Positions 780 to 60,611 of a DNA stretch of 64,000 bases are shown here, piece by piece. Every line of letters starts with the position of its first letter. Within the stretch, counting starts at the first letter, position 1. The DNA is from Bryoerythrophyllum caledonicum (lineage: Eukaryota; Streptophyta; Bryopsida; Pottiales; Pottiaceae). The DNA lies in assembly GCA_963971425.1 (NCBI GenBank), contig OZ020523.1, positions 11,156,867-11,220,866 of the forward strand, written 5' to 3'. Both the position numbers and the translations under genes were made by a program. Below the pieces are notes generated by a model. That model did no database searches and was not told the DNA's origin. It saw nothing but the letters and a program-made list of their open reading frames with translations.

Positions 780-3040
780 ATGAAAAGAATCAGTCATCTT
801 TACAAATATGCAATGATTGTAAAATAGGCACCTTGGTATCAAAGTGCCCATATGGAGCACTATTCTTACTTGTAGTTGCATTTTTTCACAGAAAAGAAAT
901 CCTACCATTTTTCACACAATAGAAATCAATGAACTTTACAAATATTCAATGAGGGGGAAATAGCACCTCGGTACCAAAGTATCCATTTGGCACTCCAAAC
1001 TTCTACTAAAATTCTTGTCTCTACTACAAATATACATAATTTTAGTGAGGAGAAAAAATGGCACCTCGGTAACAAAGTGCAAATTAGTACTAAAGAGTAG
1101 TTCCGATGGGAAATTTTTTGGTTTTTCCTCCATGTCCTTCGATTCTTGAATCTACATTGTAGAGGTTGTTCTTCATGAGCCTTCTTAGAACTGAGGAGTA
1201 GTCTCCATTGTGTTTCTTTTGGGTTTTTCCTCCGTGCCATTCTTAGTTTCCTAAACTCTACACTTTATTGGTTGTATCTTATGAGCCTCGTCGGTACCAA
1301 GAAGCTCTTCCCATTAGTGCCGATGAGCCTATTTAGGTCCTCGCTTATAAGTGCATAAAGCAAGATATGACCTCACACTGAAATAAAGAGCAGAAAACCA
1401 AGAGCCCAGAGAACGGCCCCTCGATGCCAAGAAGCCTATTTAAATTGCACATGAAGAATGAAAAAACATGATTTTGGCTAGTCATGAAGTGAAGAATAAA
1501 AAACAAATAGCCCAAGCAACGGCACCTCGGTACCGAGGTGCCTATTTAGGTTGCACTTGAAAAGTGCAAAACCATGATTTGGGCAAGAAGCAAAGTAGAG
1601 ATTAAAAACAAAATAGCCTAGAGAATCGCTCCTCGGTACCAAGGAGCCTATTTCTATTGCAAATAGAGAGCGTGAACTAGTAAATGTGCAAGATTTAAGT
1701 TGAAAACATGAAAAACGCCCAAAAAACCGCATTTAGTCTAAAACATTGAGAATACACATTATAGAACCGCACCATAATGCTGAGGAGTCTATCAGCCTAC
1801 GTCCAACAGAATGCAGAACTTAGAAACAAGCAATCCACCTGAGTGTATATATTAGGTTATGAGAAAAACATGAGGAAAGAACAAAAAAAAGGATTCTATG
1901 GAGACTGCTCCTAGGTGCGGAGGAGGCTTATATGATACAACGACCAAAGTGTAGATATTAGGATCCTAAGAAAGACATGGTGAAAAAACCAAAGAAAATG
2001 ACCATGGATATTGACCATGTTCCTCGGTATCGAGGAGGCTCGTAAGATACAACGAACAAAGTGTAGAGTTTGGAAACCTAAGAAAGGCATAGAGGAAGAA
2101 CAAAAACAAACTCCTTGGGGAGTGCTCCTCCATACCGAGAAGCCCCATAAAGAACAACCATTAAAAGTAGATTCAATTTTTTTAAAAGGATGTGATGACT
2201 CAATCAAGGCGTATTGGAACTTCTCCTTGGTACCAAAAAGCTCATGGACAACAATTAGAAAAATATAGATTACTGATTCTAAGAAGAACATTAAGTAATA
2301 GTCCTAAAATGATAGTCCAAGGAACCATACTTAACGCTTCATTTCAACGTAGAATTTCTATGTCCAATATCACAAAAACTCTGAGAATACGCATTGGGCA
2401 CTTCGGTACCGAGGTGCCATTTTTCTCCTCACACAAATTATGTAAAATTGTAGTGGAAGCAAGAATTTTAGTGTTCAAAAATACATAAAAGTTTGGACTG
2501 CCAAATGGGCACTTTGGTACCGAGGTGCCATTTTCCCCTCACTCAAATTATGTAAAGTTGTAGTAGAAGCTAGAATTTTAGTGTTCAAAATTACATAAAA
2601 GTTTGGAGTGCCAAATGGGCACTTTGGTACCAAAGTGTTATTTTTCCCCTCACTCAAATTGTAGTGGAAGCAAGAATTTTTGTATTCAAATTTACAGAGA
2701 AGTTTGGAGTGCCAAATGGGCAATTTGGTTCACCCCTTAAGGATCATTTTTCTTAGTGGGAGACAATTGTTTTTTCCATTTTTTTATTTTTTCTTTTTCT
2801 TTTTCTTTTTCCCGCCCTAAGGGCGCTCCTCGGTACCGAGGTGCCCCTCGGCAGGTGGTTTTTTTTTTTTTTTCTTCCCTCTTAGGGTGCTCCTTGGTAT
2901 TCAGGTGCCCTTCGACTAGTTTTTTTTTATAAATATTTTTTCTATTATTATTATTATTTAATTTTATTTCGTGTTTTAAAAAAAAAAAAGATTTCGCCCT
3001 CCGGACGCTCCTTGGTACAGAGGTGCCCCTCGGCAGGTTT
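780..3040. repeat. Degenerate tandem array with GGTACC-centred palindromes
   Basis: About seventeen copies of a palindromic core recur through this block. The best copies, such as the one near 1526, contain CACCTCGGTACCGAGGTG. Others lie near 830, 966, 1061, 1285, 1415, 1627, 1907, 2020, 2125, 2222, 2399, 2509, 2619, 2824, 2888 and 3005. Spacing is mostly 97-113 bp, so the core belongs to a diverged tandem unit of about 105 bp. The three units between 2399 and 2730 keep the same flanks (CTCAAATTATGTAAA and TTTGGAGTGCCAAATGGGC), which confirms a true repeat. The 3' end grades into T-rich low-complexity DNA (2760-3050). The open frames across the array come from the repeat and are not genes. 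Confidence 0.85.
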
Positions 3041-21060: not shown

Positions 21061-21843
21061 CTTCACCTCAATCAAACTCCTCTAAACCACTCAACACGCT
21101 CTAGAAACCGACAACAACGACGAATTCCTGCGTCAACGGCGTATATACAGTGATGGCAGAAGCGCTCGAGCTTCGACTGGGAAGGTACAAATGTGGAAAT
21201 CGCAATCTCTGCTTTGTGAGCGTGTGAGTGCTATGTTTCGAGACGACGACCATAAATCGACTGTAGAAGTAAAAGAATACATGGTTTCTACGACCTGTTT
21301 CATGATTCATCCAAAAGTGTTTTCCATGTACGCGTTCATCCATTCGACGCCCCGTTTTCATCGACGTGTTCATCCAAAAGGACCGTTTGTCATCTTGTAT
21401 TCTTTTATAAACCCGCTCGCTACAGTCAATCTGGGTTCGAGGTGTCAGGACTTGGTTTTAGGCCTGACATCGCAAAGAGCGGCCCTTCTCACCGCGCACC
21501 TTTTTGCCTCCATGCGTCCTTCTTCCCACGATAACGGCCACTTTCGCCCAAATCTTTTTCGCGCTGCCGGTATCTCTTATCGGCATGCTCACCAAAAGCC
21601 CCTTCTCCCCCCGCCTTCTTTGGATCACCAAAAGCTCCTTCTCCCCCCGACACGTGTACTCCATGGGGGACCCGTCCTTCTTGGCGGCTGCTGGCGCGAA
21701 ATGTCATCCACATCGTTTCGTATGGCGCCGTCTTTGGCACAATCCATTGTGCGGTGTAATACACTGCCGGAAGGGGAGTGCTTGTCTCCGCGTGAATGGA
21801 GTTCCTCGATCTCAATCTCCCCATACAAGACAGACCAAATGGG

Positions 21844-21899
21844 GGGATTGCTATTTTGCGTGCCTAGAGCGGTGAGCGGTGAGCGGTGAGCCTAGAGCC
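21844..21899 (+). repeat. Left terminal inverted repeat of the MULE
   Basis: It reads GGGATTGCTATTTTGCG inward, followed by TGCCTAGAGCGG and three GTGAGCG-type repeats where the right end has two. It pairs with 37031-37078 over about 45 bases with a few differences. The flanking 11-bp duplication is at 21833-21843. Confidence 0.85.
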
Positions 21900-22415
21900 A
21901 AAAAATGTAATTTTTTTGAGGGAGTGATTTAGAAATAAAAAAGGATTAGTATATAATTTCTAAATTTAGTTAAAAACTGGCTCATAATGTCGTGAAAAGA
22001 GGTTGCTGAAAACGTATGGATAGACATAGAAGGAAGTGAATCCATGTACATTGGGAAAAATGGAATTGGAGACGGATTATTAGTTCGAACTAAACTTACA
22101 ATTGACTTGAAGAATTGAAATGAATATTAACATTACGAAGATTTAATCTTGTCGTACAGGATTTATGACATTTTTTGCTATGCCCTTATAGTCCTCGGAC
22201 TTCTTCTAGTAGTATTCGATTCTGTATATAATAAATTGATAGGTACTGTTTTTGTGTAGAATATTTGTTGCCATATATTTGATTAGATATGGGTGAGGAA
22301 GCGCTGTAAAAAATAACTTTCAATTTTGAATGAAAATCGGTGACTCCTGGAGTTACACCTTTTTTTAATAACAACAGCGAAATGTAATACATTGTTGAAA
22401 TGCTATTGTGGATAC
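21900..22415. other. MULE left subterminal region
   Basis: AT-rich DNA without a gene lies between the left terminus and the 3' end of the transposase gene. It presumably holds the transposase 3' untranslated region. I see no array of subterminal repeats. Confidence 0.4.
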
Positions 22416-25400
22416 CTATGCAGTGTATTGTTTAAGAAGCAAAACCTGAATGACTTGTTTAGTCTCATTCCAGCTAAAACTAGGAGCATGCATAAACACA
22501 TCAACATCGGGATCTAATCCGCAGACAATGTTGAGGATAAAGTAGAGGTGCTTACAAGACGTCCACTGTGCGCGTTTGCCGAGAGACTTGTTAGACATGT
22601 CTTTGAAGGATGGGCAATCACAACTTGGGAATTGACAAATTGAAACCAAATACGTGGAGGCCTTGGAAATACTTCTTGACTCCAAGCTCAAAATGCATCC
22701 TAGAGCTGGTCGCGGAACCATAAAGATCTTGCAAATTTTGCCAATCACAGACAGTGCAGAGGCGCAGCTATTATGGTGTTTTGTAGTCGGAGCCTACGGG
22801 TTTCGACGGATATTCTTTCCATACCTCCTTGTCGGATGCTCTGATGGGTTCATGGGCGGAGGATATTCCTCCAAGTCCACAGGAGTGGAAACGTCCGAAA
22901 ACAACTTCCTTGGGGACAACTCTACACGCTCAGCGAGGCGGAATCCAACGTTTTGAAGAGCTAATATTTCTGTATTAGATAGATTCGTGCCCATCTTGAC
23001 CGGCCAAACATCTGGGATTTTGGGTTTAGACAATACCCACTGCCTTTGACTGTCTTTTGTGCAACGCTCAATGTCGTCATTGCAAAAGAAAAACTGCATC
23101 TTCTCGATCCTATTCTTCTTGTAGCTGTCCATCATACCGGTATAAGTCGGGGCTGTAGTATTTTTCCCGTCTTATACGATCTTAGCAACACACTTCTTCC
23201 TCCTGATAGCCTGAAGGGCAAAACATGCTTTCGCAGAGGTTTTAGGGAGTCTAGCAATGTGCCATTGTCGTTCATCGCAGTCTGATTCTAGTACTGCCTT
23301 AGGGTGATAAACGCGGAAAGAAGATGGTGGACTCGACGGAGGCATGACTCGTGGTGCATCAAGTTCATCAATCGGGTACACCACGTCAGTATCGGTTGAA
23401 AGGTCTACAAGATCTGGATTCGTCCTTCTAGTCCAGACACGAGGGCGTGAGATACTGATTTTGTCGGGTCGGTGAGAGTCGAATTCGCAACGAGGCGATT
23501 GATCAGCCTTTCTCTTCACTATAACAAAGACTTCTTCACCTTCGAGATGAGGATCGCGGATGCAGAATTGGGCAGCGCCAGGCATGTTGTTAAACGCTTT
23601 GTGGAGCACTTTAGAATTACCAGACCGATGCGCCGTTCTCTGGGCTGCACGAAGTCGAAGTTCTTCTTTTCCGGGCCCGGTTCCAGCCTTCTCACCCTTG
23701 AGGAAGCCATAATAGGCCACGACTTGCATGAAAGCGCGAACCATATCATCGACGGTTGCCACATACAAGTCGTTCCCTCTCTTGCCTGATTGTTGTAACC
23801 ACTTATTGTGGACGGTCTCCGCTAGATTGCATGAAGGCATCTCAGCCATTTCCGACTCCGATAAAGCCTATGAAGCGAAGAAAAGAACTACTATAAGAAA
23901 AGAGCACCCCTAACATCAACAAAACATGAGAATACAAAATTACAAAATGTAGGTTGCTTACATGATCCATGAAGCCCCCCCATTGACGGTAGCAAAAATG
24001 CCAAAACGTGAGCCATAAATCAAGTCGGACAAGCCCATCATCCATCGTTGCTCTAGATAATAACCACCACAATCAAATCGCCAGGTACTTCGCTTGAGCC
24101 TCATCCATAGTTGTGGAATTCTTATACTGTTTGCAGAGCTGCCGGTGTTGGTCTTGAAGGTCCGCCCTAATGTCAGCCTTAGTGTGCTTCTCAAGTGATT
24201 GGGTCCAGTGAAATAAACAAGTCCTTTCCCGGTTGTCCATTCGGATCGAGGAGTCACCACCTCCGTATATAATTCGTATAGCATTCCAATTTGCCTGTGC
24301 GCTGTCGGCCATGAAGCCTTTAAAATTCACAGTTGGCATGTCATGCTTAGCCGCCACAACATTCAAATTGTTCCAGAACACTTGTTGTGCAGCGGTGTCC
24401 TCGGATTGCATGTCACAGACGGCTATAGTCATTACACGGCAAAACGTAGAATCATAAACATGTGATGCCATTGTTGTCCATCCCTTGACACACTTCACAT
24501 GGTCGAACATCATCCAGGAGTCTTCCAAATCACCTCCAGGTTGCATTCGGCGCACTAAATCCACGCCACTACCAGTTCCAATCTCACCCATCTTGAAGAT
24601 GAAGACCTTGTCAGCGTCTGCACCTTGACCTGGAAAACGGTTCTCCTGGACGAAAGCCCAATTGCTTGATCCTCTAAGTTTAGTAATACTATCCATGACA
24701 CCAAATCGGCGTAAGTAACGGAATGTTGTCACTTCATTGCGGAGACTAGAGGAGGACATCAGTTTAACCTTGTCCAAAACAGGGACCAGTTCTTCTAACC
24801 CGAAGGTCTTCTGAGAGACACCGTCAGGACAAAGGAGCAATTCACCAAGGTACTCCTTACTGGCTTCCAAGACAATAGAGGAGTTTGTAGCGGCGGGAGT
24901 GCGTTCAACTTGTTCGCCAATTAGTGCCCTAAATTTAGCTGTTGTGTCTCTGCAAATACCTATCTTCACTGGATGACGATGAGAACCCAGATGAACACAA
25001 GCACGGGACATGTTATTTTGCCCAACTACGTAATATACCTTGGCCAAACAACTCTCTATGCATGTAGGTGGCCGGTGACAGATTGCACATAGTACAGTTG
25101 AACTTGAAGGCGGATCGCAACCAGGAAAAAATGGAGAGGATGAGGTACCCTCCCATTCTGTCTCATTGAAAGGGGAGGCTCGATTGGGACGATGAAGATA
25201 ACTGCAGAGATGGTTAGCGCATCGAAGGTGGCCTAAGCAAGAAGACATCCGAAATGAGAGATGATGTTCAGACTTGATGTGTGAAGTGACGATACGAGTC
25301 CAAGCATGACCGTCATGTTTCTTATCCATACCGTGAAGGTGCTCAGCCTTGGAAGAAGGAGGAATGTTCCCAAGAGAAATAAGTTCAAATATAATGTCAC

Positions 25401-26085
25401 CGTCGAAAGTCGGTGGTAGGAAGTCAACTTTCTCTACAGTGATGGAGTTGAAATCAAGTTTACTAAGGACAGACTTGGCTCCACGACGGGAGCCTAAATT
25501 TTGCAAACACTCTACTATGCTATTTGACGTTGGGGGAAAGGAACGTTGAGGGGGATTAGATCTGTGCAAGGTAGTCAAGGAAGGTGGCGCTGAACAAGGA
25601 GGCGGAACGATCGGTGTTGATGGAAATAAAGAAATGCTAGGAGTCAAAGGGATGCACTCACCGTCAGAGTCGTCACTCAAAACGTACAGGGTCTCATTTC
25701 CTGGCTCTATTTTGACCTTTGAAAGCAGTGGTGTGACCCCAGTAGCAGTTGAAGATACACGAGGCGTCAAAGAAGGTGATGCTGTTCCACTGCTGCTATC
25801 GTTTCTGCCATACACTCAGTATTTACCCGCTCTAAGCGACCACAACTCGTCCACGCCACTGACAGTACTAAACTGTGCAACTGAATGAGTGATCTCACCC
25901 GTGATTGGATCGAAAACTTCTCGATCGACGTGAACAGATCCCTCAGTGATCTTGAATCTAAATGCTAGACGACTTCCACTCACTGAAGCAAAGCCGGTGT
26001 CACCAACTAAAAAAGTAACTGGTACGGTTGATCCCTCTCCGCGCAGCAAGACAAAAGTACTGAGTTCATCCTCTGAACCTGCCAT
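22416..26085 (-). pseudogene. MULE transposase with C-terminal SWIM finger
   Basis: The start is the ATG at 26085 (MAGSEDELSTFVLL). One frame runs to 23964, then an intron (GTAAGC donor, TAG acceptor), then an exon from 23867. The MULE nuclease domain is plain near 24530-24130: TIAVCDMQSED with the first acidic residue, FKGFMADSAQANWNAI with the second, and CLFHWTQSLEKHT with the usual C/H pair. Further on come WLTFWHFCYRQWGGFMDHV and NLAETVHNKW. The 3' part (22748-22430) has a SWIM motif, CDCPSF then CKHLYFI, normal for Mutator-like transposases. In-frame stops lie at 25816-25818 (TGA), 24073-24075 (TGA) and 23172-23174 (TAA), with further damage between 22794 and 22748. Frame is otherwise kept, so inactivation seems fairly recent. 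The enzyme would bind the element ends and cut them in the nucleus. Confidence 0.85.
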
Positions 26086-26664
26086 TTTTGAAATTGACGA
26101 AGAAGACAAGTAGTATAATGTGATAACAATTACCTGAGAGGAAATTTAGGGAGTTTGTAAGGAACCTATATACCATGGGTTTCACTAATGGACCGAAGAG
26201 ACCAATATGGGATTCGTGGAGACGAGTGAGATAATAAAATAAGAACTCGGCGAAATGCGGCCGTCTTTTTTCAATAATTAGAGTCTAATATAATGTATGA
26301 CAGGTACACTAAACCAAAATCTTATTGAAGTTCGACTAAAATATGTTTGAAAGACTGCTTAATCTCAGTCGAGCCGACTTTATCATTATTTTAAATTGCA
26401 ATTTCAAAATTGTGACTAATCCTGGAGCATCAGTGGCAATGAATTCAAACGTGGTAGAAAAGTACAAAATTTAAGTATCGCCAATGTCTTAATCTAGGTG
26501 ACTGTAATAAATGATATTCTCTGTTAAAATAATCTCATTTATTTTCGATCAAATCTAAGGAAAGAATGATAAAATATATTTCACATGTTCATCATAGTGA
26601 TGTGAACCCATAATTTTGGAATAAGAGAGTAGATGAATGCTGGCAAAATTTCAAGTCACTAATC
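26086..26664. promoter_or_regulatory. Shared upstream region of the two MULE genes
   Basis: This 579-bp AT-rich stretch separates the start codons of two divergent genes inside the transposon, so it must carry both promoters if they were ever expressed. I see no clear TATA pair or symmetrical motif. The arrangement implies that transposase and cargo were co-regulated; this is inference from position only. Confidence 0.5.
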
Positions 26665-28224
26665 ATGAAGAGGAGAAAGAGGAAAGCCTTGTATTTCAGT
26701 GATCCCAAGATGTTGAAGAGGAGTAGGCAAATGAGAGAGAAGAAGTCGAAGCCAAGGGATGCCGATCTGGGCGACACAGCAAGGGTCCTGACATATGAGA
26801 ATGCGTCTCGAAGCAGTCCAGCTATGAGTAGTCAAAGTAGTCCGGAGCTTTCGAATATTGATGAGCTCCACATTGAAGATATGGAACGAGACGATGGTGA
26901 GGAATCGAACCAAGATAGGAGATGTGAGGCTGATCATGATCTCGGTAAGTCCTCATTGTTGAATATTGTCCTTATCGATTCAATTTCAACATTAGTCTTT
27001 GCGAGTTTAGCTTTAAAATCAATCTGGCATGATGGTATTCAATCATATAGAGAATATTGAGATGGTTACAGTATATATTGTATCAGAGAGCCCATTTCAT
27101 ATCCCCGATGGCAGCAAATGTTCAGTTGAATTTTGATATAAGGTCGTTCTCTTAGGACGCGGCAGTATTGGCTAGTAGTAAGTAGTACTTGTTGCTAAAG
27201 ACCCAAGGATACTTCCAACCGCTTTAAGATGTCCTTTTCAACACGTACTTCCTCAATATCGTCACCCATTGAGTTCACCCTAGAAGGTGAGAGTAGGGCG
27301 GCCAAGTAAGAGGAATAGAGAAATTCGGAAAGGGAGTAAGCGGGTTAGAACCTAAACAAGCGGAGGGGCTCAGCAATACTGCCTAGTCGAGTAAGACAAG
27401 ACCAGACTCTAGATGAGGGAGGCATGTGGACCCCAGGCATGGAAAAAGTCATGGCGTAACCACAATTACAATCGCGTGGGAGCAGCGCCTTCATGCTCCA
27501 CCCTCGGTGACCCTAAGCAAGACAAAGGAGAGAAGGGCCGTGAGTTGACGCGTGAGGGAACCGCGACTAGGGAGCTGCGTGAGTTATCAGCGACTTGTCT
27601 TCCCGCGCGAGGGAGTTGCGTTAGCTGAGGGAGCTGCGTTGCGTGAGAGTCGGCGCCTTCCTGCGTCGCGTGAGGAAGCTGCTTTGCGAGAGGGAGCTGC
27701 GCCACGTGATTAGGGTCGCCTTCCTGCGCCGCATGAGGGAGCCGCGTTGCCTAAGCAAGCTGCGCCGAGATCGACTAATCAGCGCCTTGCTGCGCCACCA
27801 CCGTAGAGGTCTAGGGTTTGTTGTGGTGAGCGTCGTCGCATCTAATCGTCTTATGATGTCGCGAGAGGGAGAGCCGCGCCTTGATGCGCCAAGAAAGGAG
27901 AGTAAGTGAATCAAGCCCGAAAAAAATAGCGAGTGGGAGAGATGCGTTGTGACTATTAGGTTTAGGACCATCAAAGATCCCAATGTCGTTCAGTTTTCAT
28001 CGAGATTATGGGTTTCTAACAATCAAGTTCTTGTTGCAGCCGAGGTGTGCGACGAGCGCGACGAAAGTGAAGCAAACAGTGACTCAAGTGGACCTAAAAT
28101 GATAGGTAAGCAGCTCATGTCCAATTTGAAGCCATCAATTAAACCTTAGTAGAATGTTACGGAGTAATATTTTCCAGGGAGGTCTGAGAGGGAAACCGTC
28201 GGCACAGGCAGCGCCACCTCCGAC

Positions 28225-28310
28225 GAGGTGCCGCTGTCGGCACCCCCCCGACGGCGTCCCTCTCCGGACGAGGAAAGGCGCCGCCGAGGGGGTGCCGACA
28301 GCGGCACCTC
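28225..28310. repeat. GC-rich hairpin in an intron of the cargo gene
   Basis: The left arm 28225-28256 and right arm 28279-28310 are inverted copies with only a few mismatches, separated by 22 bases. Each arm holds GTGCCGCTGTCGGCAC or its complement, itself nearly palindromic. The sequence is far more GC-rich than the intron around it (28106-28418), which suggests a separate small insertion. Related fragments precede it from 28195. Confidence 0.85.
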
Positions 28311-29563
28311 CCCACAGGTGACACTTTTGACTTTATCTCCATTTTTCTTTTCTTGTCTTATCAATTTCTTTTTCTATGACTTTGGCTAATTTTTTGATTC
28401 TGCTCTTATTGATTTCAGAGAACCCTGTGACTGGCTCCGACCTGCAGGATTTTCAGAATGAAGGTTCTATGAGACTTCACATTGATTCACATCTGTTCAT
28501 TGTATCTAATACGAAATCTAGATTGTTTTAGGGCTACCTACTAAGGAGACATTACTCCTGGACGAGGAGGACACAGACGGTAGCATGAAGCCCATGTCTG
28601 CTGACGAGCTTGGGAAGGAGATGGATGACTTGGTATTAAAGGAGTCAGTCAACACAAACTTGGTTTTGGAGAGGCTTCGGTTGAAACCGAAGGCTAAATC
28701 TAAGTTACATATCCCTCTATGCAGAATGATTTCATTACCGGTGGTCAGGCCATTCTTGAAGAATGATGTCATGGGGCTGAGTGCTCATTTTGTAAGCACA
28801 GGTTACATGGATGGCCACGGTGTGTTCTATGTAGCTGTGGAGAACAACGAAGGTAAGACTGTTCCTGTCTCAGATGAGATATCTGGATCCTGGAATCCAC
28901 TTTGGACCAGTGTAAACGAACGCTTCGAAACGGAGTTGCAGAATGATATTGATTTGAAACAATTCTCTGGAATGATGTTCCACGTCTGGGATGGAAACCA
29001 GAGATTACAGGCTTGGATGCCTGTAATCAACCGAGATCATTTCAGTGACATCAACTGGCATTACTCGGTGGAATCTATCATTCTTAATGTGGACGGACAA
29101 GTGGCTCCTCTACTTACGGCTCTTCACCAAGTAAATTGGTATGTTCATTACTTATTGCAACATCTAGCATTGAATGATTTGAGTTGACCACTCCTATTGC
29201 ATTTGTCTTCGTTTCAGATTTACTCAACCTTGCTTTGAATTGAGTTGCTCAAAGTACTGCATGTTGGTGATGAATTGTATTGTGTAAAACACAAATTGTT
29301 TTCTACACAAAATGTCTTTTTGAGGGAGCTGTTTTGTAATTGACTCACTGATATGTCTCACCAGGCGAAACCAAAAATCTCATGTGACAACAAATTTAGT
29401 CCACAAATTATATCGCATTCAGGGTATTGCCGGTCAACCGCTTGAGTATTTTGAAACTCTCGTGGGCAAGGACGAGATTGTTGCAGCCGAGGCAAAGCAG
29501 AAGTCAAAGGAACGAACTTGGTATACTTTGACATTTAAGTCTCTTATCGCGATTCTTTACCAG

Positions 29564-30653
29564 GTAATTCGACTCATCTTTACTATGTGCAGTATCAAGA
29601 GTGATTAGTACATAATATTATGTGGAAGAATCGCAAGAATTACTTTGATTCTGTGATGTAGATGTGATTATATTGAAATAGAAAATGTACGGCAATCCCC
29701 ATGATATTGGTTTCGGTTTCAATACTGAGTGTATTTTAAGACTCACCAAGAAATGACATAATTAGATGCGTATATATATCATGGCTTCTCCCTTCTGATT
29801 TATTGAGTTTATATTATTGAATTAATATTATTTATTATTTGATGATTTCATAATCTCTACGTAGTTTCAGTGACAGAATGAGTTGTGAGTTTGGTTTTTG
29901 GTTATCGTGATTTTGGTAAAGTTTTCGGTGACGTCGTTTTCCTCAGCTCTAACTATGACCTTCAAGGATATTTATCAACATGCGTTCACAGAACTCATAT
30001 TGGTTTGTCGAGTGATATTGAAATAACTATTGAATTAGACTGTATTCGGAGAGGTAGATAATAAGAGTTCTCTCGTTACAAATGGTTGACTCTAAATTGA
30101 CTGCTTCCCGAATGTAACCTTCTGCATGATCCTGAACCTGAACTCCTCTATCATTTGTTTTAGTAAAATTTTGTTTACAAAGATCATACTGATCACAAAC
30201 CGTATATTTTGGTTCAATTTATTAGTGATACTTCTGTTAGAGGCTGCGAATCGGCTTAGTATTTGGTACTTGAGTCTTTTTATTTTTCTCCGAAATATTT
30301 TGATCTTGTGCATTAGAAATCTTTGAAATAGTATACTGCTGCCTTGTTCCGGAACACGGGAATACTAGATCAGTTCACTAAACACGTTAGAAAAGCAGGC
30401 TGTACATGAGTCTAAATTTTTAGTTAATGTCGACTAAAATTTCATTGGATCAGTTTCATGTTTTATTTGCACCTGCTTGACTATTGAACTTCCAACGGTT
30501 TATTTTTGGAGGCCCATCCAACAGTATTGTGCATTGAATATATGTGGAATTGTTTCTACAAACTTTGGATCAGTTTCCTTGGTTTAGATACTAGTATTGT
30601 GTCCATGTTTTCTTATGAGGTACATTAACTAAATTTTGTTCTGTCCTCCCCAG
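29564..30653. other. 1.1-kb AT-rich intron of the cargo gene
   Basis: This is the longest native intron of the methyltransferase-like gene, between GT at 29564 and AG at 30653. It is AT-rich. I see no gene or recognisable element inside. Confidence 0.6.
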
Positions 30654-31029
30654 CAAGAGCTTGGTGATGCTGTTGCTCACGCCAATAGGAAATTCAAAGA
30701 GAAGTTCCCTGACGAGTCAGAGTGGACTTCAGCAAAGATTCATGAGTTCGTTTCTGAACGCTTTGAGAAAGTGAAGGTTCAGCTTAGCTCAGAGCTCAAG
30801 AAGCAACTACCGATTGCGGACCCAAAACATACAGCAGAGTTCTTATCTCAAGTTCGCATTCATTACGAGAACCGTGAAGATGATCCTGAGATGTCTCAGG
30901 AAAAATTATATTACCTCGCAACCTCTGCAATGGTTTCCAGCATGAAGGTAAAGTGGTTGGAGCGGTGGAACAAGCCACCTTCTCTTCGTGAACAAGTTTG
31001 GTTTCCAAGGTCAAAGTTTCCAGACCATG

Positions 31030-33331
31030 CACTATAAGAAACCCGTGTTTTTTGTTATGTCCTTAATCATGTCAGCGTGTTTTTTTGATGTCTTGGAGCT
31101 AGCCAGTAATGTCCCCGTGAACGTGAGGATGTCCACGCGTCAATAATGAACAGTGGAGGTGGGAGGGTCCCGAAACGCGCGTGCGAAATAGGAGACGCGA
31201 CGATGTCTCCAACAACGCGCCCGTCTCGGAGGACGTCATCGAGGACATCTTGGGTGACGCAAAATTGCCATGCTCGCAGCGGACAAGCGTTTCACCAGGG
31301 ATAAGAATGTCGAAGTTACTACTATGCAAGGTAGAAAGCAGCCCAACGTTAAAAAAAACAACGAAACGGGCAGCGGTCTGCAAGAGGAGAAACAAAAGGG
31401 CGCGAGCCTTATAAAACAAGATTTTTTTTTTTAAATTAAAAAAAAAGTATATAAAATTGAAGAATATTCTGATTATATTTATTAACTTTGATCCTCTGAA
31501 ATTTTTGATTTGTCCACTTCGTATCAAAATGGTTTCCAAAATAAAATAAAATTTTAAATATTAAAAATACAAAATATTAATTAATATTATAATAATATTT
31601 TATAAAAACTGATTATTCTGTAATTAAAGCGGACATATTAAATTCAGTACTGTATATTTAAATATGAATTAATATTTATTAATTAATATAATATTAAAAT
31701 ACCACTTTTCTACCAAAACCAGAATTATAAGGAATTTAGGGTGATTTTGTAAAGTCCTTGGTGGCTTACCCATGTGGATATATTATATATTTTGTAGTTT
31801 ACAGCACTTCATCTACATGGCAAATACAATTCCATGTCGGATAAGGTGACACGTCATTCTGTGTATAGGTCCACGTCACTTGAGACATCCAATTGAAGAT
31901 GTCTCGAGTAACGTCTACATATCTTTGAGGACATCCCACAGAGACGTCTCTGAAAACATCAGCAGTGTTTGGCAAAACATTGACATGTCCTGGAAAACAT
32001 CATCGTGTCTTGCAAAACATAACCATCAAGTAGGATGAATTTCGTCAAGTTCATTGGATGAATAGAGGCGGCGAGGGTTAGCTGCTGCAGCCATAGTTAG
32101 GTCATGAGGCGGCTAGGGTTAGCTGCTGCAGCCATAGTTAGGTCATGAGACCTTTAAGTAGAATTTGAGGTTGCACAAAGCTCACTTTGGCCTTCATTTC
32201 TCCAAGTAGTTAGAGTTTTAAATGTAGAGGTTGAAGTTTTAGAGTGTAGATTGAGTTTACAAGTTAGAATGTTTGAGTTTAGAGTGTAGAGGTTAGAGTT
32301 TTGAGTGTAGAGGTTAGAGTTTAGAGTGTAGAGGTTAGAGTTTAGAGTGTAGAGATTAGAGGTGCAGTGTTGGACATGCAATGTGCTGTGAGCGACATAT
32401 AGACGTGACCATGTTGTAGAAGACGTATGCCGCAGCACTTACGAAACGTAGGGACGTCTTTTGAAACATCCCCGTGTCTATGGAGACATTCCTGGACATG
32501 TTCACAAACACGGCAATGTTTTAGGCTACGATGTTGTGACATTTTAGCGATGTTCAATTTTGAGTTTAGTATAGGCTGTATTCGTCTATGTAATGACTAT
32601 AAAATGGAAGGCATTCATATTTTAAATTGCGTGTATATCATATTACCACATTTGCAAGTAGGCCAGTAAGCATGAATTTGGATGAATGTACATGTTACAT
32701 GTATGATGAGGTATTCATGTCTTGTACTCATGTCTTGTACAACATATTGATGTCTTGTACAACGTATTCATGTCTTGTACAACATCTCTCGATGTCCCTC
32801 CAAAACACCATCACATACACAGCGTCAGCAATACCATGCATCAGGGGATGTCACGTCAGACACGCATAAGTTCTTTGAGACGTCTGCGATCACACCCTCA
32901 TTGCCGACCCATGAGGTTAAAAAACACAGCCATATTACCAATGACGTCCCCGCAAACACGAATCTGAAAAAAAAACCACGCAAATATCTGTTGTCGTGGC
33001 CTGCCACGTCACTCTTTCCCGGGTCCAGGTCACACGCCACGTCAGATTCCACGTCACCATTGGATCGGATGAATTTCCGGCCATGTGGCACTGCCCGTCA
33101 TCCTACCGCTTAGGTGTCGTCTACGTGGCGCCCAGTTGGCACCATTTCGAGCCTCCCCAAATCTCCGAAAATCGTCCCTGTCGCAGGGATGTCCTCGCGT
33201 TTTTGGTGATGTCCCTATACGTTATAGCGTGTTACACGCGTTGGTACGTCAGAGGGATGTAAATTCGGATGACTACATGTCTCCTAGGACATGATTCAGG
33301 ACGTGACAAAAAACACGGGTTTCTTATAGTG
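31030..33331. mobile_element. Non-autonomous CACTA element nested in the cargo gene
   Basis: The element is 2,302 bp. Both ends begin CACTATAAGAAACCCGTGTT read inward and stay matched for about 34 bases with three differences. The three bases outside are ATG on each side (31027-31029 and 33332-33334), the 3-bp duplication expected for CACTA (EnSpm/CMC) elements. Subterminal parts are full of short GATGTCC/GGACATC-like motifs in both orientations, as is usual for CACTA ends. There is no transposase. Removing it together with one ATG restores an open exon (KFPDH then DFPDWLHKATWWSQ before a GT donor), so it inserted into a coding exon of the MULE cargo gene. Confidence 0.93.
32215..32362. repeat. 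21-bp minisatellite inside the CACTA element
   Basis: Five to seven imperfect units of the type AGAGTTTAGAGTGTAGAGGTT run here. A second repeat, TCATGTCTTGTACAACATAT, recurs three to four times at 32708-32790. Internal minisatellites of this sort are common in non-autonomous CACTA elements. Confidence 0.8.
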
Positions 33332-35993
33332 ATGACTTCCCTGACTGGCTTCACAAGGCAACATGGTGGTCTCAGGTACTATCTTCTGTTTTATGCCATT
33401 GTGATTATAATTTGTGCTTTGCTTCTAAGTTATATGCAAATTTCCATTCTATGATTTATTTCTAGTTGATTGACTTGAGTACTATTGTTTGATTGTTGTT
33501 TCTAGCTTTCAGCAGAGACCGAGACTCTCTTTGATGGGATTTTATTGGACATGGAGGTTTTGATTGACTATTTTTCCGATACTGGAATGCCTATTCTAAC
33601 GATATCCAAATATATTGAGCAGATGCGCGTGCAACTGTGGCATATTGCCTTTCAAAATGAATTCAAGGGAAAGGAGTTCACAAGAATAATCCGCCGGAGA
33701 AGCAAGTGGGATTGAAGCATGCCATCAACCGCACTATCTACAGGTACTTCATGTATATTCTTTTCTCAAGGAAGACAATCACTAGGACTCCACCATCCTT
33801 CTCCAATTACTTGGAGAAGACTAGTGATATGTTTATGTTCACTGAGGAAATGACAAAGAAGTGGAGCCGCGAGCATTGGGAGCGTTGCGGGTGGTATATA
33901 GCTTGTCCTGTGAAGAGGCCACCTTCATTTGATATCGACCTCAGGAACAGTGTGCAGCCTGATCTTCTGGGCACAGAAATTTCGGTTCCTTCAGTCACTA
34001 TAGAGGTTGGTCCCAAGAAGACTTGTGTCTCGAAGAGGAAGGCTGCAGCTGAGGCCGAGGCCGTTGCTAAAGCACAAGCGGAGTCGGATGCCGCTGCAAA
34101 GATGAAGGCTGAGTCCGACGCTGTTGCATCAACTGTAGCAAAAGCACTTGCAGCCGCCAAGGTTGATTTAGCCTTCCAACAAGCTCAGCTAATCCCTTCT
34201 ACCATAGCTGCCGACGTGGATGACGTCCACATGTTAGACTCGGAGTCCTTGGTGGCGCCGACTCGTTTCAATAGGAGACCGAAACGATCTCCAGCTGAAG
34301 CCTCCAGTGCCTCAAGTCCCCTCTCATTAAGTTCTAGTATGCTTATCGAGAAGGTTAACGCTGGTAGAACCTCCACTCTTCTCCCTACGACAGTCTTCGT
34401 GGACAACACATCGATCTCTATGATAATAGAGTCCTTTCCTGCACAGCACTCATCTCTACATCAAATCAACTCGTTCGTCCTCCAGGTACTTCAGATATTA
34501 TACTATTACTTCAATTCAGATCAGTATCCCCTTTACTTCTCCTGGATTTTTGTCTTCTTCTGGAGCACATATAAACGGCAGCAAAACTGAGCAACTTTTA
34601 CAACATACTATCATTTAAACTGCATCCAAACACCCATGCTCTTAGTTCTCATACAGTTTTATTGACTTCTACTTATACAGGCTCGAAAGGAGGCCTCTAG
34701 TTCAGAACGGTCCACTCACTGTCCTCACAGTGGATTTGACTTGATCTTGGCAGACATCCCTGACGGGATGCCCATCCCATCTATCTCGAAGCATGCGTTG
34801 GACATTCCATCGTGGAATGAATATTCAATCTCGGCCATCGAAAGCTTGTTTGAGTTTTCTAAATACTTCCTTCATGATTCAAGTGGGATACTGATCTTCT
34901 TGCCCGAGGTACCCTCCATTCGGTCTCATGTGTTATCGTATGCAGGAGGATACGGTTTCAAGGTCTTCAGAGAGTGGTGGGCAATTAACGACCTCCCCTT
35001 TACCTCGCACATTAATGCAACATTGAAGGTTTGATTTCTAACCTGCTTTCCAATATTCCAATTGGTTTTAGTTTACAATTTTGAACTTCGTATTCAATCT
35101 CAGAGCTTTTTCTTGACCGTGGTTTGTTATGCAATCGCAGTCTCAAAGGTTCCGTGTCTTGTTCTTCGTTCGTGAGAACGTGGATGTCGGAATGTTTACT
35201 TTCAACAAGAACAATTCCCTCTCTGAAATGGGAATGGACGTGGAAGAATCAGACGTTCTATTCAATTTCACCTCCGCCGAATCTCAGTCCATGCGAGGAG
35301 TTGTTCCATGGAGAGGGCCACGTGAGAAGGATTCTATCTTCCTCCGGATGTTGATTGAGGCGTTATCACAGCGTCAAGCAGTTATTCTGGATGCCTATGC
35401 CTCCACCGGTGAGTCTTTCTCAAAGTTTACGGCAAGATATTTAATTTCAAGAATTATTATAGAATTGATTTTTCTCTGCAGGCAATTCCGTGCGCGCATG
35501 CCAGATGACCGGTCGACATATTGTTGCTCTGGAAAGCGACACCGCCATCTTTAACGAGAAGTTGAAGGACCTTTCATCCCGATCATCGGTGCCGACAATC
35601 CCAACTCATTCACCTGGAGTGACAACTCTCCCAGACGAAGACGTCCTTATCCACAAAATAGTGAAACGCAACTGAATGAGTACGTAAATTTACCTTTTAT
35701 ATGTTTAGATTTCTCTGCCACTTTGTTGTGATGAACTCCATGTTTTCATATCTTGATATCTCAATGTTTTCTACAATCTGATTGCTAGGGCGGTTTCTCC
35801 ACCAAGTGATTTTCTACTGCCACCTTCGGCCGTACATGCTGCTGACATATTGGCGACTACTTCTTCTCCTCGACATCAAACCCGCAATCAGCAATATGAT
35901 GCCCAAGTGGTTTGTTATATGGATGTAGAAGCAGAGGTCGATTTACATGCCCTGCCCTCATCTTCGGACTCTAGTTCTTTTGCCTCTACGTGA

Positions 35994-37030
35994 GCACTAA
36001 TATTGCCCTCACTTGGAATCTTGCTTGTTCCACTTCGTTTCAAGGCACCCCCTCTTTATAACAACCGTCCCCTTCTTGTTCTCCGCCGTCTTATTTTCAA
36101 TTATAAATACATGATTAAATTACTATAATTGAAAATATGTTTTTTCCCAATCGATGCCACATACAACCATATTGCGTGTCCTAGTTCTATATTGCCTGTT
36201 TCTGGAGATTTCTAAAATTTATTGTAGTTTTTGCGTGAATCTCTTCCTTCTACTTACGTTTGGTGATCTCTATATCTTGAACTTGCGGTGAACGGATCTT
36301 AAATTCGTTGTGTCTTTTATAACAGTGGAGACCTTCATTTTATATGGTCTGAAATTGACTCTATGTACTTCCTCAAAGTAGTTGAGCACCATACTCATTC
36401 TTTCCATTCTAGAAAGGCATTATCACTTTGTATATATAATACTCATTGTAAAACTGAGTATAAAGGAAATTATTTGAGCTACAAATTTATAGTAATATGC
36501 CCTTATTACATTCTCTTACTACATGAGCCCTCTAACCTTTCAATTCCTCATTTTCTTCCATGTAATCAAGACATCTTTAATCATTATTATCAGTACCCCG
36601 CGCACTACAATATCTCGTTGACTTTTCCAAAATTTAAATCATTTGATAAATACTACTCTGTAAGTTCATCGATAAAATCTAGCATAATTTTCATTGGACG
36701 CTGTAATAGTGATTAAATGAACACAAAAACTGGTATCATATTTACTTGATGTCGAAAATTTGGATTGATAATGCAACGTCACTATTTTAAGGGTCTTCTA
36801 GCACTCCACGGTCATAGGGTTCATACATCCATCCACATCTTAAGCAAGTGTTCCCTTCTCAAAAAGTACCTTATTTTATAGAATGGAAAACCAAAGACAA
36901 CACATACTTTATTGGAGCCCACGACTATAGGCGCTCTTCCATCAATTTCGACTAGGTTATATTCACTTTCCCACTTGCTTCATGTCAAACTTTATGACAT
37001 CGCTTTCCTAGAAAAACCCCAACTTCAACA
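35994..37030. other. MULE right subterminal region
   Basis: AT-rich DNA between the stop of the cargo gene (35991-35993) and the right terminus. It contains the presumed 3' untranslated region. I see no further gene; the open frame at 36363-36716 has no coding character. Confidence 0.4.
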
Positions 37031-37078
37031 CTCTAGGCTCACCGCTCACCGCTCTGGGCACGCAAAATAGCTTCATCC
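37031..37078 (-). repeat. Right terminal inverted repeat of the MULE
   Basis: On the plus strand it reads CTCTAGGCTCACCGCTCACC, then GCTCTGGGCACGCAAAATAGC and TTCATCC. Its complement matches the left end. The 11-bp flanking duplication follows at 37079-37089. Confidence 0.85.
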
Positions 37079-37717
37079 GACCGAATGGGAATTCTGGCGA
37101 GACGGCGCCACCAACCATTACCGATAACGGGGCAGCAGGGAGGAAATGGAGGCATCAAGGGAGAAAGAAATTGGCTGCCGTGCGTGAGAAGGGGGTGGAG
37201 GACCTTGATGCCGCGTTTAGGGTTGGCCCGCATGCAGACTACCTAAAGAAACACGGTGATAAGATTCTTCGGATGCGCGATTCGAAAAGGAAGCAGTCCA
37301 AGCTTATCGCCTACATTCCCTCGGATAGAAGGAGGCGGCTACTCGGCTTAAGCAGCGTATTGGCGTTCATCATCACCATCAACGTAAAACCCTAAACCAG
37401 CCATGGCAAAGTTTTGTATGGCGGCACCATTTCCCGCACTTTTGAACTATGTTTTTTGCCGTCTAGCTACATATCCAGGAAGTCCAAGCTCTACATCAGC
37501 GATTGCTCCTTCAAAACCTTAAAATCGCCGACTGAACTTTTTGGTAAGTTCCCTGCCCTCCTTTCTTTCCATTTCATTCCATTTCGGTAAGTTTCCTGTC
37601 ATTCTTTCTCGAAATTTCTTTTTGGTAAGTTCCCAGTCCTTCTTTCTTTCCATTTCAAATGTGGGGCGTTGGAAAATAAGTTGTGTGAAGTTGTAGGAAA
37701 TTTTGCAAAGCGTCCAA

Positions 37718-56089: not shown

Positions 56090-57742
56090 TGTGAGCAATT
56101 CACACCTTGTACTCTTTGCATCGGTTGCCCGATGTTCGTGTGGGAAGATCCTCGCCGTTAAGGGTTTGGAGTTGAACGGAGTTGTTGGGGAAAACCTCCT
56201 TCACAAGATACGGTCCCAACCACAAGGCATCAAACTTGCCAGGGAAATCCATTCTCATCGCATCTTGGAGGAGGACTAGCATGCCCGGTTGTAGTGACCG
56301 GACTTTGTTTCGGTTGTCAAAGGCAATCTTCCTTCGACGTTGGATGGCTTCCATGTGTTGGGCGCTCCATCGGCGCATCTCATCGAGCTCCTCCAATCGT
56401 TCTAACCGGACGGCTAAGGACGTGGCCATGGACCATCGTTCGGTCACGGCCACTCGCAAAGAGGGGATCTCGAACTCAATTGGCAAAATGGCTTCAATGC
56501 CATACACCAACGAAAAGGGGTAGCATGGGTGGTCACCTTGAAGGTGGTTCGGTAGGCCCATAATGCAGCGGGGAGTTTCGTGTCCCAATCCCTCTTGGAA
56601 TCGGTGACCGTCTTCCTCAAGATATTCACGAGGGTTTGGTTAACTCGCTCGGTGTGCCCATTGGTTTGAGGGTGATAAGGGATGGTCTTACGATGGTTGA
56701 TCTTGAACCGAGTGGTCATGGCTTCGATCATCTCGTTCAAAAAATGTTTCCCTCTATCACTAATGAGGATTTTGGGACAACCAAACCGTGTGATGATTTG
56801 TTCGAACAAGAATTTGGCCGCATGACTTGCGTCATTGGTTTTTACTGCTCGAGCCTTGGCCCATTTGGTGAGATATTCGGTTGCTACCACAATGTGATTC
56901 ATTCCACTAGAAGAGCTAGGGTGCACCTCCCCCACGTAATCAATACCCCACTTCTCGAATGGGACCAAGGGCAAGGATACGCGCAGTGGCATGTTCATTT
57001 GGAGGTCATTTCGGGCATACCGTTGGCAAGCGTCGCATCGCTTGGTGTACTCATGGGCGTCTTGGAAGAGTGTGGGCCAATAGTAGCCTGCGCGAAGGAC
57101 TTTTTGGGCCGTCAAGGTCCCAAAGAAGTGCCCTCCACATGCGCCGTCGTGGTAGGCTGAGAGGATCGTGGGGATTTCCACGGATGTCACACATCGACGT
57201 AGCAAGCCGTCAATTCCACGACGGTACAATTTGCCCTCGACTATGGTAAAGTGGTGGCTATGGAGACGAACCTTTCGACGCTCGTTTTTGGACAATGAAT
57301 CCGGTAGAAGGTGGGTAGTAAGAAATTCGGCCACCAAATAGTACCATGAGGGAATGGAGGATACCTTGAACAAGTCCTCGTCTATCAAGGCCTCATCAAT
57401 GGGGACGACACCAAGTTCCTCTGAGAGGCGTGAGAGGTGATCCGCTTGAAGGTGCATCCGCCCCGGGCGGTATTCCACCGTGTAGTCAAACTCCTCTAAA
57501 AGTAAGACCCACCTCGCTAAACGACCACTCACGTCCGCCTTGTTGACAAGGTACTTGATGGCCATGTAATCCACGTAGAACACTACGGGGTTGAGTAACA
57601 AGTAGTGGCAAAAAATTTTGACCGAAAAGACCATTGCCAAGCACTCACGTTCGGTGGTGGTATAGTTCTTTTCGGTGGGGTTTAATTGCCTACTAGCGAA
57701 GGCAATGGGTGGTCCTTGCCGGTAAGGCCCACGGGTTGGCAT
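56090..57742 (-). pseudogene. LTR element: RNase H and integrase region
   Basis: The RNase H part includes NPVVFYVDYMAIKYLV. The integrase has its zinc-binding HHCC domain (ending TKRCDACQRY), the core with WGIDYVGEV, KILISDRGKHF and YHPQTNGHTERVNQTL carrying the acidic triad, and a C-terminal part with LWLGPYLVKEV. These are standard for Ty3/Gypsy integrases. It belongs to the recent element above and is treated as a fossil part. Confidence 0.88.
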
Positions 57743-57798
57743 AAGGTGCTCCCTACAGCCACCACAGATGCATCACAAAAGATGTGGAAGGGCAACTT

Positions 57799-58872
57799 TC
57801 AATTCGGGGGCCTCAAAACCGGGTAGGTGGTTAATTCCTTTTTCAAGACTTTGAAAGCCTCTTGGCAATGGAGAGTCCACTCGAATCTTACGTTCTTTTG
57901 GATTAGTCGAGTAATGGGCATGGACTTCGTGGCATAGTCATGGATAACCTCCCAATACCATCCTATGTGCCCCCGGATTTTCTGTACCTCTTTGACAATT
58001 GTGGGAGGGCTTAACTCCACAATGACCTTCACTTTGTCGGGGTCTGGCTCTCTACCCTCCTTGGAAACCACAAATCCTAGCAAGACCCCCTTCTCTACGG
58101 CGAGGAAAATCTTTTCGGGATTGAGAGCGATGCCGGTGCGCCTACACCGCTCGAAACTTTGCCGCACACACCTGAGGTGGTCGGCCTTTGTGGACTGGGT
58201 GCTAAAATCGTCAATGAATACCGTCATTGATTTATGCAAGAGGTCTGAGAAAGCATAGGTCATGGCCCTCTGGAATGTGGAAGGGGCATTACAAAGCCCA
58301 AAAGGCATGACCAAGTAGATGAACGTGCCCCACGGGGTCGTGAAGGCGGTCTTGTGATAGTCCTCGGGGGCAATGGAGATTTGGTTGTAGCCCGAGTAAC
58401 CATCCATAAACGTGTAAAGCTCATGACCACCTACCTCCTCTAAAATGGTGTTGATAAAGGGCAGGGGAAAGTGGTCTTTTTGGGTGTGGTGGTTGAGTTT
58501 CCTATAGTCAATGCACACCCGTAGCTTCCCATTTTTCTTTTTAACTAACACCATGGGGGAGACCCAATCGGATATCTCCACAGGCTTGATGAACCCCGCT
58601 TGGAGTAGTTTTTCCAATTCTGCCTTGACAATGAGCTGCAGGTTAGGGTTCATGCGCCGCTCCTTCTGTCTAATGGGGGTAGTGCCTGGGAGAAGGGGGA
58701 TGTGATGCTGCGTTACCGCCGAGGGAATGCCCTTGAGGTCCTTGTATGACCACGCGAAGATGTCCCCAAACTCCACCACTAGTGCTTTGTATTCCACTAA
58801 CTCTTCCTCGGTCAACCCAACGCCCACTTTTATACTCCGGGTTCCTTCCGCCTCGTGAGAGACCACCATCAA
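57799..58872 (-). pseudogene. LTR element: reverse transcriptase region
   Basis: The reverse transcriptase is clear from VKKKNGKLRVCIDYRKLN, MDGYSGYNQISIAPED, MPFGLCNAPSTFQRAM and the active-site strand VFIDDFS, where FIDD takes the place of YVDD. It ends in the connection region leading to RNase H. Confidence 0.9.
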
Positions 58873-58920
58873 TTTCCAATCATCCTGATGTACGTGCGGT
58901 TGTTGGGTAGGTCCCTGGTA

Positions 58921-60027
58921 CTAGTCGTTCGGAACTTGGGGGTACGTTGCCCCAGAACCACTAGCTAGTATACCGGTGGATGTCCTACGAAAGTGGAGGG
59001 AGGGTTTGAAAGGGCCTTCTCTTCCCAACACTTCCAACTCGTTCCCTTGTGTGCCATCAACATCCAGTCCAAATACCGCCGCGGGTTCTAGGTCATCGAG
59101 AAGGGAGACTAGGCTAAGTCCCAATCCGGTTTCCCCGTCAATGAGCTCACTATCGATGAAATGCACGGATATGGCTTCGTCCGTGCTCGAGGTGGGGTGC
59201 TCCCTCAACCAGTCTACAAACTCCCCGGTGGGGACCCATTCATAAAGGCCCGGTCCCATGCTTTTAAATGGCATCACATTGGCCCTCGAGGGTTGAGCTC
59301 TATCCACCGCCTTGTGTGGTGCGAACCTCACCTTCTTGGAAGATCCTTTTGTCAACACCTCTTGCGACTCATCCTCCAAAGAGCCCATACAACCATGGCA
59401 AAGTCCTAGCCTACTTGGTTGGATATGGACCGTAGTAGGATTCTCCGGAGGTCTGTAGGTGATGTTTGGTTGCGGTCCTCCCCATTCTACCGTGGCATTG
59501 GCAATTCGCAACCAAGGTCTTCCTAGTAGCAAGGGGTATGCCTCCTTGTTGGAGTGCATTCGAATGACTTGAAAGGTGAGGGAATACTCTACACCCCCCG
59601 TGGTAACTTTACAACCACTAATTTGGCCTAACGGGGCCTCCGAGCTTTGATTAGCCATGTTGATAATGTATGGTGATGGTTCCGTGATGTCCAACCCCAA
59701 TTTCTCCATAGTCGAAAGGGGCATGATGTTCAAACCACTACCACCGTCGACTAGTACGTTGGGTACCACCTTATCCACGATTGAAACTTCAATTTGGACC
59801 GCCTTGACTTCGATATTGGGGTGTGCGGATTTTACACGAGCTGCCAATCTAACTCTTGCCTTAGGCCTCCGCTTCACCGGGGTGCCCGACCTAAGGACCT
59901 TCCTCATGGGTGGGGATACCTCCAATAGTTGGGCTATGGTGATGTCTGCCTTGAGGCGACTCAAATCCGCCCATAAATCGTAAGGTCTCTCTCCTACGTG
60001 TCCCTCGACCCGTGGGAGGGTGTCCAC
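58921..60027 (-). pseudogene. LTR element: aspartic protease region
   Basis: The retropepsin active site is seen in VLVDGGSGLNIM. A second conserved strand lies near LLGRPWLR. The sequence before it resembles the gag-protease linker of Tat-type elements. Confidence 0.85.
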
Positions 60028-60611
60028 CTCGGGACTAGGGGCCGGTGGCCCTTCCTATGGTTCTTAGGAAGCGGACGATGGTGTTCGGAACCTAGGTGTC
60101 CCATGAAAAGACTTTAGATTGGCCCGTTTAGTGCCCTCCACCGCCTCTTTGGTGGCATCGTTTAGGTCAGAGAAGTGAGGTGAATCTTCCTCTGAGGTCT
60201 CACCCTCTTCTGGTATGGGTGGAGGGGGGCTCGAATACCTAGGCTCGCATCGATTAGACCGGGTCTGGACTGCCAATGCGGGTAACTCACAAGGTTTTGC
60301 TTCCTTGGTTGTGTTAATCTCGTGGAAAACTACATTGACCTCAGTGAGGGAAGGGCCTGTGTGGACACGATTTCACTTGACATGGTGGCATAGCGGACAT
60401 CATGTGGTCCTTGGTTTTGTTGCCCCCCATGGTTTTGTTGGTCTCCACGATTTTGCCCTTGGTTTATAGGGATGTAACCGTCCTTGGTATTAATCCCCAT
60501 TGGGGGAGTTTGACTTTGGCGGTTGTTGTTGTAGTCATAGTAGAGGCTAGGTGGCCTAAGAGTATTATCACCGGTAGGGTTGCGTGCACCTCTCAAATGG
60601 TCTTGAGCTTG

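Follow-up and report, generated by a model that had tools for sequence, protein, structure and literature searches.

Organization of the locus

The window, that is, the whole 64,000-nucleotide stretch of DNA analysed here, contains a transposon of 15,236 bp (21843-37078) flanked by a 10-bp target-site duplication with one mismatch, which reads GACCAAATGG on the left (21833-21842, plus strand) and GACCGAATGG on the right (37079-37088, plus strand). These limits derive from alignment of the ends with 11 other pairs of termini in the same genome and from matches to the empty site, where a 320-base join of the two flanks and one copy of the duplication was continuous with genomic sequence at 40 of the 40 places scored (408 candidates), agreeing to 90-92% across the junction. 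Because the joined flanks match genomic places in this way, the boundaries can be regarded as fixed; the element lies in a high-copy repeat, and its empty site is present many times. The original prediction, which had proposed such a comparison of flanks with empty sites, placed the element at 21833-37089 between 11-bp direct repeats. The transposon is real, but the 11 other pairs put its true ends 7 bp beyond the termini first recognized, so that the span had to be corrected, and the repeat measures 10 bp rather than 11.

The predicted inverted termini are present. The left terminal inverted repeat (21843-21897, plus strand) consists of GGGGATT, GCTATTTTGCGTGCC and GAGC heptads in a 7-bp register, and the right one (37031-37078, minus strand) of GGATGAA, the same GCTATTTTGCGTGCC and GAGC heptads. 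Two sets of inverted arms can be aligned, one of 35 nt (21850-21884 with 37037-37071, 97% complementary) and one of 24 nt (21874-21897 with 37031-37054, 100% complementary). Ends of the family as a whole begin with GGGGATT or GGACSAA, followed by GCTATTTTGCGTGCC and the heptad array, which comprises 3-7 GAGC heptads at each of 24 ends in 12 elements (0.28-0.53 expected per 150 bp) and keeps its register fixed at both ends in all 12.

Two genes stand head-to-head within the element, separated by a shared upstream region of 579 bp between their start codons (26086-26664), in agreement with the predicted divergent arrangement around some 580 bp; both are damaged in the window. The transposase gene, modelled on an intact copy elsewhere in the genome (e5), lies on the minus strand in two exons and carries four in-frame stops. 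Exon 1 (23962-26085) encodes a zinc-finger region, the first and second catalytic aspartates and a CxxH pattern, with stops at 25816 and 24073, and exon 2 (22416-23867) encodes the third acidic residue, within NLAE, and a terminal SWIM-like finger, with stops at 23172 and 22794. On the plus strand, the partner gene begins with exon 1 (26665-26944) and continues through exon 4 (28534-29138, start approximate), which encodes a ParB-like region with VWDGN(Q/H)RL, exon 5 (29365-29563), exon 6 (30654-33375) and exon 7 (33506-34485). A degenerate methyltransferase motif IV, DIPD (34753-34764), lies in exon 8 (34681-35028); exon 9 (35141-35408) holds the first half of motif I (LDAYAST), exon 10 (35482-35683) the rest of motif I and the motif II-like GRHIVALESD, and exon 11 (35790-35993, approximate) is the last. 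The window copy of the partner has one in-frame stop, a frame change near 33660 in exon 7, and an insertion at 31030-33331 that splits exon 6, while the e5 partner is open over 11 exons and encodes 1,225 aa. The inserted sequence is a nested CACTA-type element of 2.3 kb, with 44-nt inverted ends that start CACTATAAG and are 93% complementary, and with a 3-bp duplication, ATG. Elsewhere in the window, the minus strand at 56100-62168 carries what looks, by eye, like the coding region of an LTR retrotransposon of Gypsy type, with open reading frames resembling gag, protease/reverse transcriptase and integrase, and a search of the window against Rfam found nothing.

Copies in the genome and recent mobility

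In the 437-Mb genome, the terminal 15-mer GCTATTTTGCGTGCC is found at 470 places (226 on the plus and 244 on the minus strand), and its reversed-pattern control at 0. Pairing by eye among the first 100 of the 470 places gave 27 convergent pairs under 50 kb, of which 11 (e1 to e11) were read. A perfect 10-bp direct repeat was present in all 11; in ten of them it is separated from the 15-mer by exactly 7 bp at either end, and in e7 it is shifted by one base. Since e1 and e2 constitute one insertion, as an inverted duplicate with shared flanks, the 11 pairs represent ten independent insertions. The two copies are located at C1:143371-158847 and C1:1180995-1197509, some 1 Mb from each other and oppositely oriented, with flanks common to both, and reflect either a segmental duplication in inverted orientation or a duplicate that arose in assembly.

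The family has been recently mobile. Copies e4 and e5 share 99.76% identity along 12.2 kb and have perfect but different target duplications. At least 14 transposase matches of the e4/e5 type, spread over ten contigs of chromosome size, contain no stop across the query, and 13 of the 14 have a partner 2-4 kb away. Among the 12 elements, e5 is the sole one free of stops in both genes (transposase 1191 aa). Two short copies, e8 (8.0 kb) and e11 (6.0 kb), which are 94% alike over 5.1 kb, combine perfect ends and duplications with a decayed transposase and lack the partner; they are likely non-autonomous riders. In the subfamily of e1, e2 and e9, the transposase adjoins the GGACCAA end, whereas in the other two-gene elements it adjoins the GGGGATT-type end, so the interior of this subfamily is inverted relative to its ends. 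Within subfamily 1, the window transposase is closest to that of e7 (dS 0.28) and the window partner to that of e3 (dS 0.34); because the closest copies differ, modules recombine between elements while the pairing is kept.

The assembly contains at least 13 chromosome-size contigs. Telomere arrays of CCCTAAA were seen at five of eight contig starts read, and of the remaining three, two read N and one was non-telomeric. This last start (C14:1-300) looks bacterial by eye and may be contamination of a chromosome-size contig end.

Pairing of the two genes and selection on the partner

Nine of the 11 pairs read (eight of ten independent insertions) hold the transposase and the partner head-to-head, e8 and e11 being those without a partner. 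Other copies with the same termini and 10-bp duplications thus enclose both genes, as the original prediction had expected. Among all 27 convergent pairs, 16 enclose both genes by the listed protein matches and two more by direct reading (e7, and the pair at C2:12445280, in which the transposase was read); among listed matches, two contain the partner only and seven contain neither gene, e8 and e11 belonging to these seven.

A wider count drew on 112 distinct listed transposase places and 216 listed partner places, each from two protein searches in which the best 75-150 of 1758-3011 candidates were scored; 115 of the 150 rows of one transposase search entered the count, the other 35 being repeats of the other search's rows. 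A divergent partner match lay within 20 kb of 88 of the 112 listed transposase matches (2.3 expected by chance), 24 had no partner match, and at two places the nearest partner stood in another layout. Of the partner places for which no transposase was listed, six picked at random were also inspected, and five of them (e7 and four of five fetched) had a transposase adjacent, the sixth having none within 5.5 kb; the unpaired places therefore partly reflect how many candidates were scored.

At least four diverged subfamilies, as well as a fifth relative, have retained the partner. For each gene, dN/dS was computed for 45 pairs of copies and ten pairs were used (dS 0.17-1.07), the others being saturated or above a dS of 2, with four young pairs. 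The partner gave ratios of 0.13-0.28 and the transposase of 0.15-0.32; those of the youngest pairs were higher (0.56-0.65 and 0.19-0.76, respectively). Between subfamilies, where dS is saturated or exceeds 2, dN reached 0.31-0.47 for the partner versus 0.19-0.28 for the transposase. Judged by these substitution patterns, the partner is under purifying selection together with the transposase, as a selected and faster-evolving component of the element. The frequency of pairing among listed matches and a dN/dS matching that of the transposase, together with retention across subfamilies, bear out the proposal that the gene is a resident partner rather than a chance captive. That it is a captured passenger hitch-hiking with the transposase would accommodate the copies without it (e8, e11 and the 24 unpaired listed matches) and the stops found in the partner of nine of the ten copies read, but is extremely improbable, being already contradicted by the dN/dS values and at odds with the constant head-to-head layout and with retention across dS-saturated subfamilies.

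A Mutator-type transposase

In e5, the catalytic residues are D528, D594, C623-x-x-H626 and E725, all aligned in the relative P0059; the CxxH pattern after the second aspartate was taken from the accessible part of PMC7780238. P0059, which is 33% identical, scores above the Pfam cut-off for SWIM (22.8 versus 19.6 bits), and its cysteines and histidine are aligned in e5, although e5 itself gave no match to the Pfam SWIM profile. The catalytic fold resembles that of ISCth4 and other IS256/Mutator transposases. Target duplications of Mutator-like elements measure 8-11 bp (PMC6446971), and the 10 bp found in 11 of 11 pairs fall within this range, alongside terminal inverted repeats. The predicted MULE/SWIM transposase is thereby upheld as Mutator-type: DDE residues with CxxH, the SWIM finger and the ISCth4-like fold all fit the Mutator/IS256 group. 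Sixty transposase relatives, close to distant, were collected from public genome and metagenome assemblies (P0001-P0060), and none has a precomputed Pfam domain; they form a large unannotated Mutator-type family.

The Pfam MULE profile matched neither e5 (up to E 1) nor four relatives (up to E 10) in HMMER searches, whose filters drop weak hits. Such a result would also be expected of a transposase from another superfamily of large elements, such as KDZ or Sola, and KDZ transposons are typically large and carry extra genes, as the present element does. This assignment is nevertheless very unlikely. KDZ was set aside on the length of the target duplication, which is 10 bp here, compared with 8 bp in KDZ and 7 bp in Kyakuja (PMC12730594).

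A methyltransferase-derived partner with an altered motif IV

The C-terminal region of the partner matches PF01555 (N6_N4_Mtase) in seven of seven members of an alignment that holds seven of the ten copies (e2, e4 and e7, near-duplicate or heavily damaged, were left out); the best E-value is 2.4e-6, and the member shown scores 22.7 bits, below the Pfam cut-off of 26.7. The region also resembles PHROG 6952 (best 7e-8) and, weakly, the methylases DpnA and RsrI in the PDB (E 0.018-0.11), and aligns collinearly over both motifs with the adenine methylase of an Aeromonas phage, at 22% identity (E 9e-3). A full-length search found no homolog of the partner under a length filter that left out single-exon gene calls, and exon 8 alone as query found two relatives. 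These similarities show the C-terminal part to descend from a bacterial-type N4/N6 DNA methyltransferase.

The candidate AdoMet-binding motif I reads LDAFAS[TIVL]GNS, as compared with the DPFAGSG type, and is aligned by PF01555 in seven of seven members and by the DpnA/RsrI profiles at the E-values given above. In place of [DNS]PP[YFW], motif IV has the form D-[ILV]-[PKR]-[DE] in 13 of 13 sequences, namely DIPD, DVPD, DIRD, DLKD or DLRD in the ten elements, DIPE in the fifth, more distant relative (L036) and DIPD in the database relatives P0061 and P0062. None of the 13 has an aromatic residue at the last position, and several lack the second proline. Since the DPPY-type motif is missing throughout, the idea that the transposon brings its own working DNA-modification enzyme is unsupported. 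The missing aromatic residue makes loss of activity likely, so the partner probably no longer methylates; a changed active site is possible, given that the acidic residue of motif IV is itself conserved.

The case for an active but unusual N4/N6 DNA methyltransferase that marks the DNA of its own element is that purifying selection has conserved the methyltransferase region, with motif I and motif II-like stretches kept; in the altered motif IV, the D and the D/E position are likewise preserved across subfamilies. The phage methylase, whose DLPF aligns with the DIPD of the partner, also departs from the consensus. An active enzyme remains unlikely in view of the 13 motif IV sequences without the aromatic residue, the second proline lost in several of them, and a motif I of LDAFAS rather than DPFAGSG.

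The other label in the original prediction, ParB-like, holds for the motif VWDGNHRLxAW and no further. When the ParB-like exon was used in profile searches of Pfam, PHROGs, NCBIfam and PDB sequences, no ParB family was retrieved, tblastn against phages gave only matches of E 4-9, and the AlphaFold model of the domain was poor (pLDDT 41); the term is therefore best read as a motif resemblance. A match of the same exon to an acetyltransferase (17 bits, cut-off 360) was taken as chance.

Possible roles of the partner

Taken together, the data are probably best explained by a self-mobile transposon of the Mutator (MuDR/IS256) superfamily with two genes, of which the methyltransferase-derived partner would bind element DNA as a non-methylating accessory. 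The minus-strand gene encodes a transposase with a zinc-finger region, an RNase H-type DDE core with CxxH, and a C-terminal SWIM-like finger, which, judged from the sequence, cuts and joins at the heptad-bearing ends and makes the 10-bp target duplications. The plus-strand gene encodes a protein of about 1,200 aa, of methyltransferase descent in its C-terminal part and with motif IV lost. Because the methylating motif has seemingly been given up, this protein probably grips DNA rather than marking it; it may bind the DNA of its own element, perhaps at the terminal heptads, in an accessory role that either shields the element from silencing, in the manner of VANC in VANDAL, or assists the transposase. 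The GAGC heptads are candidate sites for either protein, perhaps for the transposase alone.

For the role itself, a captured DNA methyltransferase of bacterial type, now catalytically retired and serving as a sequence-specific, anti-silencing reader of the terminal heptads, and hence as a second, independent counterpart of VANC, is suggested tentatively. The VANDAL/VANC model appears the most attractive, and a plain transposition accessory may be nearly as likely. The latter would be an end-binding or assembly factor comparable to MURB and unrelated to silencing, which is a possible reading of the constant head-to-head pairing and of the heptads, whose register is fixed at either end in 12 of 12 elements. 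Nothing links the heptads to the partner rather than to the transposase, however, and the faster evolution of the partner, compared with the transposase, across subfamilies would fit an arms race better than a pure accessory role.

Relation to known systems

The Mutator element MuDR of maize has two genes, the second of which, mudrB, is an accessory gene encoding MURB, an end-binding or assembly-type factor. The present element shares the two-gene layout and differs in that its partner is methyltransferase-derived, as MURB, to our knowledge, is not. We likewise know of no methyltransferase ancestry for VANC, which is set apart here by its description rather than by sequence comparison. In Arabidopsis VANDAL21, also a Mutator-like element with a second gene, VANC binds short tandem motifs, undoes silencing and evolves fast with its targets, as described in the accessible part of PMC5735166; DNA binding and hypomethylation by the present partner would be their inferred equivalents. 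The bacterial IS256-family element ISCth4 has an RNase H core with DDE residues and a CxxH in an all-helical insertion, similar to MULEs, and makes 8-bp duplications, with no accessory gene mentioned in the accessible text of PMC7780238, whereas the element described here makes 10-bp duplications and has two genes.

The original prediction knew of no description of this combination of genes, but transposons of other superfamilies in algae have already been reported to carry ParB-methyltransferase genes (PMC12477816, accessible part). In the brown alga Ectocarpus, the same source describes Sola1-1_Ec32, a giant DNA transposon of 21.5 kb with an accessory gene on the strand opposite to the transposase, whose 1104-aa product has a ParB-like and an N4/N6 methyltransferase domain and is predicted to methylate. 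Both elements thus contain a large gene divergent from the transposase with a methyltransferase-type domain, the accessory proteins being likened by description only; Sola1-1_Ec32 belongs to the Sola-1 superfamily, and the accessible text is silent on the state of its motif IV; the present element is of Mutator type, with a 10-bp duplication and a lost motif IV. Fungal transposons carrying TET/JBP genes also have cargo of a DNA-modification type, thought to aid escape from silencing, but the enzyme is a dioxygenase and the elements belong to other superfamilies (PMC12730594, accessible part). Methyltransferases in retrotransposons are the subject of PMC5890265, as far as its accessible part indicates.

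Searches of the open-licence PMC literature for the pairing of a transposase with ParB/methyltransferase, and for moss or giant Mutator elements, found no Mutator-type case. As far as that literature was searched, novelty lies in a transposase of Mutator type, a host of plant type, heptads at the termini, and a motif IV lost while selection continued. An accessory gene class of algal type is here the partner of a Mutator-type transposase, the genome having telomeres of plant type, and a catalytic motif has apparently been given up in this lineage while selection keeps the protein. The mechanism by which transposons evade silencing is known for few cases, VANC among them. Intact copies, regular heptads and a conserved partner of methyltransferase descent make this high-copy, recently mobile family a testable system, and if the proposed reading is true, a dead DNA methyltransferase would have become the standing partner of a transposon.
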